A stretch of DNA of 64,000 nucleotides. It comes from Aeromicrobium tamlense. Lineage in GTDB: Bacteria; Actinomycetota; Actinomycetes; Propionibacteriales; Nocardioidaceae. Where the stretch lies: assembly GCF_013408555.1 (NCBI RefSeq), contig NZ_JACBZN010000001.1, forward strand, positions 2,604,001 through 2,668,000. Reading direction: 5' to 3'. This document shows positions 9,044 to 40,917 of the stretch, piece by piece; position 1 is the first letter of the stretch, and every line of letters begins with the position of its first letter. Position numbers and translations under genes: made by a program. A model generated the notes under the pieces. The model was not told the origin of the DNA. It searched no databases and saw only the letters and a program-made list of their open reading frames with translations.

Positions 9044-9823
9044 TCAGACGCGGCCGGCCCGGCACGCTCGCGCGAAGTCCTCGTCGACCTGGTCCTCCTC
9101 CGGCAGGGCCGGCGTGACCGCCTCGTCGCCGTTGCCGATCTCGGCGAACTGCGTGAGGTCGGTGACCTGGTCGTCGGAGTCGCCGCCCGGCGTGAGGAAC
9201 CCGTCGAGCACGATCGCGCAGTCGGCGGCGCCGAACTCCTGCCAGCCGGTGAGGGTGCCCCACTCGTCGGCGCCGTCGCTGGCGATGACCCCCTGGGTGC
9301 GCAGCACGCCGATGACGCGGACGAGCCCCTCGTCGTTCTCCACCTCGTAGGCGGTGCGGGTCTGCAGCGAGAGGTCGACCGACCCGGCGTCCTGCGAGGT
9401 CTCCCAGACCGCGGTCATGCGCGTGTCCCGCAGCTCGAGATCGGGGTCGAGGACGGTGGCCCGCGCCAGTGCGGGCTCGGTCTGCGCGTCCGCGGCGTCG
9501 TCGATCGCGGCGACGAGGGACTTCGGCAGGTCCTCGCCGACCGCCCCGGGGTCGGTGGCGGCCTGCAGACCCCACGTCGCGACCGCGTCGGTCATCTCCT
9601 CGTACTCCGCGGCGGACACGCCGTCGGGCCGGGCGGGCGGCTCGGGGATCGCGCCGTCGGGCGCGGGCCAGCCGGCGATCCCGAGGTCGTCGAGCGTGAT
9701 CTGCTGCGTGGGCGCGGGCTGCGGATCCGGCGTCGCCGCGGTCTCCTCGGGCTCGTCCGACCCTCCGGTGCATCCCGCCAGCACGAAGGTCACCAACACG
9801 AGCAGCAGGACCGGTCGACGCAC
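9044..9823 (-). CDS. Predicted lipoprotein
   Basis: A 259-residue secreted lipoprotein: two arginines, a hydrophobic core and lipobox VLAGC with Cys18, then an acidic, Pro/Thr-rich linker (about 19-45). The mature part is acidic, has no cysteine pair pattern I recognise and no domain I can name; a GWQEFGAADCAIVLDGFL stretch lies near the end. GTG 9823 is preferred over the upstream ATG 9838 because it is preceded by CATACT with a 6-nt gap and gives a compact signal peptide. It is divergent from the aldolase-like gene and shares a palindromic double promoter with it. Confidence 0.7.
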   Translation of the reverse strand: MRRPVLLLVLVTFVLAGCTGGSDEPEETAATPDPQPAPTQQITLDDLGIAGWPAPDGAIPEPPARPDGVSAAEYEEMTDAVATWGLQAATDPGAVGEDLPKSLVAAIDDAADAQTEPALARATVLDPDLELRDTRMTAVWETSQDAGSVDLSLQTRTAYEVENDEGLVRVIGVLRTQGVIASDGADEWGTLTGWQEFGAADCAIVLDGFLTPGGDSDDQVTDLTQFAEIGNGDEAVTPALPEEDQVDEDFARACRAGRV

Positions 9824-9827
9824 CCGT

Positions 9828-9843
9828 CCAGTATGCATACTGG
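9828..9843. promoter_or_regulatory. Perfect 16-bp palindrome holding two back-to-back -10 boxes
   Basis: CCAGTATGCATACTGG is exactly self-complementary. Read to the right, CATACT (9836-9841) is followed by 6 nt and GTG 9848. Read to the left, the identical CATACT (complement of 9830-9835) is followed by 6 nt and GTG 9823. The two leaderless starts are therefore 25 bp apart and their -10 hexamers abut. It can be read as a symmetric bidirectional promoter, or alternatively as a repressor operator covering both start sites. Confidence 0.7.
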
Positions 9844-9847
9844 CCCG

Positions 9848-11026
9848 GTGGCTCCTGCGAACCCGACTCCCCCGTACCCCCGCCTGCTGCGCGCCACGAG
9901 CCTGCTCGACACCCCGTACGCGGTGATCGACGAGGAGGCGCTGTGGGCCAACGCGTCCGACCTCGTCCGTCGCGCGGGCGGCAAGCCGATCCGGCTGGCC
10001 ACCAAGTCGATCCGGGTGCGCTCGATCATCAAGAACGCGCTCACGCTCGACGGCTTCCGCGGGGTGATGACCTACTCGCTGGCCGAGTCCGTCTGGCTGG
10101 CCGACCAGGGCGTCGACGACATCCTGCTGGCGTACCCCAGCGTCGACCGCGAGGCCTACGCCGACCTGGTCGCCGACGAGCGGCGGCTCGCGTCCATCAC
10201 CGTGATGGTCGACTCGATCGAGGCGCTCGACCTCATCGACTCGTTCCTGGGACCCGACCACCCGCCGATCCGGGTGTGCCTCGACGTCGACTCGTCGCTG
10301 CGGATGCTGGGCGCGCACCTGGGCGCCCACCGCTCCCCCGTGCACACCGCCCGCGACGCGAAGCGGATCGCTGCGACGATCACCGCCCGCCGTGGGTTCG
10401 ACCTCGTCGGCCTGATGTTCTACGACGCACAGATCGCGGGCCTGCCCGACGGCGGCCCGGCCATCGCGATGGTGAAGCGGCGCTCCACGGCCGAGCTCCG
10501 GCGCCGCCGCCGCAAGATCGTCAAGGCGGTCGGTGCGATGACCGACCTGCAGATCGTCAACGCGGGCGGCACCGGCAGCCTCGACGTCTGGCGCGACGAC
10601 GCGTCGGTCACCGAGCTCGCGGCCGGCTCGGGACTCTTCGTGCCCACCCTGTTCGACGACTACCGGTCCTTCACCCCGCGACCCGCGGCGTTCTTCGCCC
10701 TCTCGGTCGTGCGCAAGCCCAGCCGCGACGCGGCCACGTGCTTCGGCGGCGGCTACATCGCCTCGGGGCCGGCCTCGACGTCGCGCGTGCCCACGCCCGT
10801 GTGGCCCGAGGGCCTCGAGTACTACCCCAACGAGGGCGCCGGCGAGGTGCAGTCGCCGCTGCGCGGCAAGGTCGCCCGCACCTTGGCGATCGGCGACCGC
10901 GTGCTGTTCCGTCACGCCAAGGCCGGCGAGATGTGCGAGCGGTTCGACCGGGTCGCGATCGTCGACGCCGCCGGCCAGGCCTCGCTGACCCCCACCTACC
11001 GCGGCGAAGGGAAGAACTTCGGATGA
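9848..11026 (+). CDS. Amino acid deaminase/aldolase-like PLP protein (fold type III)
   Basis: A 392-residue protein of the alanine-racemase-like (TIM barrel) PLP fold, related to D-threonine aldolase and D-serine deaminase. The likely PLP lysine is in GGKPIRLATKSIRVRSIIKNA near residue 45, and the C-terminal beta domain ends with a metal-site-like region FRHAKAGEMCERF (His and Cys). I recall similar proteins annotated as amino acid deaminase/aldolase next to an FAD sugar-lactone oxidase in many actinobacteria; the reaction is not established. GTG 9848 fits the leaderless pattern; ATG 9833 is the alternative. The stop overlaps the oxidase start (ATGA). Confidence 0.75.
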   Translation: MAPANPTPPYPRLLRATSLLDTPYAVIDEEALWANASDLVRRAGGKPIRLATKSIRVRSIIKNALTLDGFRGVMTYSLAESVWLADQGVDDILLAYPSVDREAYADLVADERRLASITVMVDSIEALDLIDSFLGPDHPPIRVCLDVDSSLRMLGAHLGAHRSPVHTARDAKRIAATITARRGFDLVGLMFYDAQIAGLPDGGPAIAMVKRRSTAELRRRRRKIVKAVGAMTDLQIVNAGGTGSLDVWRDDASVTELAAGSGLFVPTLFDDYRSFTPRPAAFFALSVVRKPSRDAATCFGGGYIASGPASTSRVPTPVWPEGLEYYPNEGAGEVQSPLRGKVARTLAIGDRVLFRHAKAGEMCERFDRVAIVDAAGQASLTPTYRGEGKNFG

Positions 11027-12306
11027 CCTCGTGGAGCAACTGGGCCGGCAACGTCACGGCCTCGCCCGACGCAATCGAGCACCCCGGCTCCACCGACGAG
11101 GTGGTGGCGCTCGTCCGCGCCCACCCGCGGGTCAAGGCGGTCGGCGCGGGCCACTCGTTCACGCCCATCGCGCAGCCCGAGGGCGTGCAGCTGCGGCTCG
11201 ACCGCATGGACCGTGTGCTGAGCGCCGACACCCGCACGGGCCTCGTGCGCGTGCAGGCGGGCATCTCGCTGCACGACCTCAACCGCCGCCTCACGTCGCT
11301 CGGGCTGGCGCTGCCGAACCTCGGCGACGTCGATCCGCAGTCGGTCGCCGGCGCCACCTCCACCGGCACCCACGGCACCGGCGCGCGGCTCTTCGGCATC
11401 GCCAAGGCGGTCGCCGGGATCCAGCTCGTCACCGCCGACGGCGAGGTGCTCGAGATCGGACCCGACCACGAGCTCTTCGACGCCGCCCGCGTGGGCCTGG
11501 GCGCGCTCGGCATCGTCACCGAGGTCACGCTCCAGTGCGTCCCGTCGTTCCTGCTGCACGCACGCGAGGAGCCGATGGCGCTCTCGGACGTGATCTCCGG
11601 GCTCGACGCGCTCGTCGACGGCAACGACCACTTCGAGTTCTACTTCTTCCCGCACACCGACAAGGCCCTCACGAAGCGCAACAACCGCGTGCCCGACGGC
11701 ACGACGCGCGCGCCGCTGCCCCGCTGGCGCCACGCGCTCGACGACGAGCTCCTGTCGAACACCGTCTACGAGCAGGTCCAGCGGCTCTCGACGCGCAAGC
11801 CCTCGCTGATCCCGCGCATCAACGCCCTCTCGGGCTCGCTGCTCGGCGCCCGCGAGTACACCGACGTGTCGCACGAGGTCTTCATCTCGCCGCGTCGCGT
11901 CCGCTTCCGCGAGTCGGAGTTCGCGCTGCCGCGGGCCGCCGCCGCCGACGCGATCGCCGAGATGCAGCGCTGGTACGCACGCACCGACCAGTACGTCTCG
12001 TTCCCCGTCGAGGTGCGCTTCACGGCGGCCGACGACATCTGGATGTCCACCGGGTACGAGCGCGACAACGTCTACATCGCGGTGCACCAGTACCACCGCA
12101 CCGACCCGGCGGAGTACTTCGCGGCGATGCAGGACATCTTCGTCGCGCACGAGGGCCGGCCCCACTGGGGCAAGATGCACACCCTCGGGCCCGACCACTT
12201 CCGCGCGGTCTACCCGCGGTTCGACGACTTCGTCGCCGTGCGCGACCGGCTCGACCCCGAGCGCCGGTTCGGCAACGCCTACCTGCGCCAGGTGCTGGGC
12301 AGCTGA
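11023..12306 (+). CDS. FAD-linked D-arabinono-1,4-lactone oxidase family protein
   Basis: A 427-residue VAO-type flavoprotein. The N-terminal FAD domain has VKAVGAGHSFTPIAQPEGV; the His in GAGHS is the position that binds FAD covalently in aldonolactone and alditol oxidases. The second FAD motif is VAGATSTGTHGTGARLFGI, and the C-terminal ALO-type domain ends with GRPHWGKMH and YPRFDDFVAVRDRLDPERRFGNAYL, the family signature. It oxidises a sugar lactone or polyol, passing electrons to oxygen or another acceptor; the substrate is unknown. Four-base overlap with the upstream PLP gene suggests the two act in one pathway. Confidence 0.88.
   Translation: MTSWSNWAGNVTASPDAIEHPGSTDEVVALVRAHPRVKAVGAGHSFTPIAQPEGVQLRLDRMDRVLSADTRTGLVRVQAGISLHDLNRRLTSLGLALPNLGDVDPQSVAGATSTGTHGTGARLFGIAKAVAGIQLVTADGEVLEIGPDHELFDAARVGLGALGIVTEVTLQCVPSFLLHAREEPMALSDVISGLDALVDGNDHFEFYFFPHTDKALTKRNNRVPDGTTRAPLPRWRHALDDELLSNTVYEQVQRLSTRKPSLIPRINALSGSLLGAREYTDVSHEVFISPRRVRFRESEFALPRAAAADAIAEMQRWYARTDQYVSFPVEVRFTAADDIWMSTGYERDNVYIAVHQYHRTDPAEYFAAMQDIFVAHEGRPHWGKMHTLGPDHFRAVYPRFDDFVAVRDRLDPERRFGNAYLRQVLGS

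Positions 12307-39018: not shown

Positions 39019-40917
<1,899 letters not shown>

Follow-up and report, generated by a model that had tools for sequence, protein, structure and literature searches.

A perfect palindrome between divergent genes of Aeromicrobium tamlense as the probable meeting point of two leaderless promoters

The perfect 16-bp palindrome CCAGTATGCATACTGG, located between a putative lipoprotein gene and a divergent enzyme operon at positions 9828–9843 of the window (the 64,000-nt stretch of Aeromicrobium tamlense DNA analyzed here), is in our reading the point at which two separable leaderless promoters meet, and not an operator. We put the probability of this reading at roughly 80%. 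Each strand of the palindrome carries the hexamer CATACT as a putative −10 element, at 9836–9841 on the plus strand for the operon and at 9830–9835 on the minus strand (read from 9835 to 9830) for the lipoprotein gene; the two abut directly on opposite strands and have no base in common. Spacers of 6 nt, GGCCCG on the plus strand (9842–9847) and GGACGG on the minus strand (9824–9829, read from 9829 to 9824), lead from the hexamers to GTG start codons at 9848–9850 and 9825–9823, respectively, the lipoprotein gene start quoted as 9823 being read here as the latter codon. The first-pass annotation had described a 16-bp palindrome with abutting CATACT boxes, each followed by 6 nt and a GTG, between a lipoprotein gene and a PLP/flavin oxidase operon. 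Its geometry is exact at 9828–9843.

On the plus strand, a PLP-dependent enzyme of 392 aa with an Ala_racemase_N domain (9848–11026) was identified from its open reading frame and a domain search; it is followed, with an overlap of 4 nt, by an FAD-linked oxidoreductase of the ALO/TIGR01679 family (11023–12306). On the minus strand, the putative lipoprotein of 259 aa (9044–9823) has the lipobox-type start VRRPVLLLVLVTFVLAGC. Searches of Pfam and NCBIfam with this protein gave no match, and its predicted structure (mean pLDDT 83) gave weak matches only, with none in the PDB below E 0.03. Residues invariant in the family alignment include C18, W84, W140, Q154–R156, C202 and C254. Strong orthologues of the lipoprotein adjoin the PLP gene in every case (21/21), and diverged second copies of the gene (34–35% identity) are found elsewhere in two genomes of the clade with abutting hexamers, in L156 (G009) and L157 (G017). 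The ATGCAT inside the palindrome also creates in-frame ATGs, at 9833 on the plus strand and 9838 on the minus strand, which could make gene finders annotate proteins with MHTG N-termini.

Leaderless genes in Actinobacteria are marked by TA-like signals approximately 12 bp upstream (PMC3160421), and in M. tuberculosis leaderless promoters that have TANNNT but no −35 consensus are established (PMC3898074). The A. tamlense genome bears a strong sequence signature of the kind described for Actinobacteria. In a 464-kb sample of the genome, for which 20 separate 20-kb stretches were used, TAnnnT followed by RTG occurred 81 times at a spacing of 6 nt (N6) and 45 times at N7, with 4–16 occurrences at other spacings. 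With an open frame as an added requirement, T-initial hexamers numbered 65 at N6 versus a background of 4.2, and C-initial hexamers 116 versus 81. On both strands of the palindrome, CATACT-N6-GTG has the corresponding form, a TANNNT-like −10 whose last T lies 7 nt before the start codon, and it fits the genomic signature except at its first base, which is C in both hexamers instead of the consensus T. Given this substitution, each promoter may be weak. A promoter pair of the TTGACA/TATAAT type was not found within 9600–10100.

The length of the palindrome was rejected as evidence, since several 16-bp palindromes per window are expected by chance: the window contains 6 perfect ones, versus 2–6 in five mononucleotide shuffles. 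What exceeds chance is the placement between two start codons and not the palindrome itself. The pattern CAY-N6-AGTA-N4-TACT-N6-RTG was matched at this locus only, in 6 of the 341 family genomes searched, and its reversed control had no match in any of them; a seventh genome, G004, carries the palindrome but has its start displaced. No other zero-gap pair with the NNTACT core was found among the 341 genomes, nor did the 464-kb sample of this genome yield another convincing case with other −10 sequences. Across the seven palindrome genomes, 15 of the 16 palindrome columns are invariant, compared with 125 of 304 in the left flank and 194 of 302 in the right flank. This conservation needs no extra function, because nearly every base is part of one of the two hexamers, though the conserved columns could also be compatible with a protein site that overlaps the promoters.

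We compared 44 Aeromicrobium loci in which the start could be read and found that the two hexamers behave as separate elements. On the PLP side, 37 of the 44 loci have NATACT 6–7 nt ahead of the start. Other xAnnnT hexamers were found by script at N6 in 4 further loci, and CATCCT or CATGCT was read by eye at N7 in L125, L126 and L129; as a pattern xAnnnT by itself is loose, and we give these seven loci less weight. The PLP-side hexamer is present whether or not the lipoprotein gene adjoins, which assigns it to the PLP gene rather than to a symmetric unit. A separate GATACT-N6-ATG marks the start of the lipoprotein gene in 14 species, with a gap of exactly 29 bp between the hexamers in 14/14; 7 species, the window's among them, have CATACT there and a gap of 0. 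In our tree these seven species form one clade (support 100/99), and the tree is compatible with either the fused or the separated form as the earlier one. Start codons are exchanged in place between GTG and ATG across the relatives, their position being unchanged, and the 6-nt spacing is kept on both sides. G004 is irregular, the spacer after CATACT at its PLP start measuring 5 nt if an ATG is taken as the start and 7 nt if a GTG is, and this deviation from the 6-nt spacing counts against our reading.

We propose that the main RNA polymerase would use each CATACT as a −10 element, no −35 being recognizable. Transcription would begin with the initial G of either GTG, at 9848 on the plus side and, given an equal distance from −10 to start, at the corresponding G on the minus side; both mRNAs would then be leaderless and translated from their 5′ ends. 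In the window's clade, the abutting hexamers would allow polymerase to load in one orientation or the other, never both. We infer the promoter identity of the hexamers and the positions of the start sites from sequence and comparison with relatives, and the steric exclusion from the geometry and from work on E. coli bidirectional promoters. The full palindrome would be a by-product, formed where ATACTG motifs on opposite strands are joined via a self-complementary GC, and a one-step deletion joining AGTAT to GCATACT would yield it. Because 14 relatives keep both −10 elements and both genes without symmetry, and others keep the PLP-side −10 without the lipoprotein gene, the palindrome appears to follow from two like motifs touching. 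The symmetric bidirectional promoter proposed in the first-pass annotation is retained in part. Each CATACT looks like a leaderless −10, its distance to the start is kept genus-wide and the putative −10 elements do abut in this clade; the comparison does not support the symmetry as a functional unit, given the 29-bp gap in the 14 relatives. The alignment of intergenic regions suggested there reveals symmetry conserved in seven genomes of one clade and absent from 14 others in which both putative −10 elements are kept.

The 29-bp gap was found at L014–L019, L021–L027 and L120, and its sequence is variable except for TGCGA beside CATACT. A search of the gap for inverted repeats gave a mean best arm of 4.5 versus 3.7 in shuffles, with no common position or sequence. 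That the length is constant while the sequence varies hints at a geometric constraint. In the control pair rfbA/rfbB, the hexamer gap, measured in 21 genomes, spans 25–54 bp and is never 0, a contrast in gap length that was explored after the alignments had been viewed and that involves one control pair only. A menA/menE-like pair was dropped as a spacing control, being kept in close relatives only. At L161:1904–1952, a divergent pair that is menA/menE-like by eye has TACACT and TACAGT 6 nt from both starts, with a 23-bp gap. It is conceivable, and in our estimate improbable, that the gap between the divergent leaderless promoters studied here is under selection that permits only 0 or 29 bp, that its geometry governs polymerase interference, and that the fused form is a minimal either-or promoter for the lipoprotein gene and the enzyme operon.

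The first-pass annotation had also allowed for an operator, at which a dimeric regulator would bind the palindrome and repress or activate both genes. Perfect 16-bp symmetry, conservation of 15 of 16 columns in seven genomes and a position between divergent genes are all features that such a site would have. The symmetric site is not conserved as a unit, however: both genes and both half-motifs are retained without symmetry in 14 relatives, where the halves lie 29 bp apart, and elsewhere in the genus the halves occur singly. The half-motifs also hold their distance to the start codons, as −10 elements do. Additional copies at co-regulated genes were sought with the 14-bp core, allowing up to 2 mismatches, and no second copy was present in the 3.37-Mb genome, a test that a single-site regulator would escape. 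A single-site regulator acquired together with the fused form stays compatible with the data. On balance we disfavor the operator and consider it a long shot.

Just as improbable, in our judgment, is that one hexamer alone is an active promoter and that the other persists by chance or because it pairs with the first. The wider conservation of the PLP-side hexamer (37/44 loci) would agree with this, as would the weakness suggested by C at the first position. The lipoprotein side, however, has GATACT-N6-ATG in 14/14 separated species, where symmetry cannot maintain it. Least probable of all, to the point of being hardly credible, is that the genes start at the palindrome-internal ATGs (9833 on the plus strand, 9838 on the minus strand) and use leadered promoters elsewhere, for while each ATG is in phase with its gene and followed by an open frame, the separated species are without them, and their starts align with the GTG or ATG 6 nt past the hexamer.

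Precedents exist both for bidirectional promoters in bacteria and for divergent leaderless pairs; the zero-gap form was found nowhere else in 341 family genomes. At bidirectional promoters, symmetry of the −10 lets polymerase engage either strand, and the two orientations are mutually exclusive (PMC12825309, PMC10268837). In E. coli, none of the five promoters tested fired often enough at its basal level for the two directions to compete, and competition appeared once one direction was strongly activated (PMC12825309). From the geometry of the A. tamlense site and the steric clash at the E. coli bidirectional promoters, mutual exclusion at each firing would be expected and is physically plausible. 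The palindrome is symmetric and contiguous, and its divergent start sites would lie close together, as they do at those promoters. Start sites in the known cases flank or lie within a shared −10 and are mostly 18 bp apart, with distances of 10 and 23 also described (PMC12825309, PMC10268837); here, in contrast, the hexamers abut without a common base, the start sites would be approximately 25 bp apart, and both transcripts would be leaderless mRNAs.

Divergent leaderless promoters also occur in M. tuberculosis, where both start sites of prpD (Rv1130)/Rv1129c were mapped to start codons and closely juxtaposed divergent promoters are called common (PMC3898074). The A. tamlense locus resembles that pair in having adjacent divergent genes, each with a putative leaderless start. 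Abutting or palindromic −10 elements are not among the features given for prpD/Rv1129c in the available text (PMC3898074), the comparison being one of descriptions. Within Aeromicrobium, the rfbA/rfbB pair (40017/40082 in the window) similarly has TAnnnT-like hexamers 6–7 nt before both starts and is likely a second doubly leaderless divergent pair (40017–40082); it differs in its gap of 25–54 bp. Doubly leaderless divergent pairs are not unusual as such; the first-pass annotation had called a fully palindromic, doubly leaderless version unusual, and its zero-gap geometry does stand apart among the family genomes. The locus is also a caution against taking every palindrome between divergent genes for an operator. 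With the same genes, one genus provides a natural series of a lone promoter, two promoters 29 bp apart and two without a gap, which would allow testing outside E. coli, where competition at bidirectional promoters has been followed, whether overlap of divergent promoters alters expression or noise.
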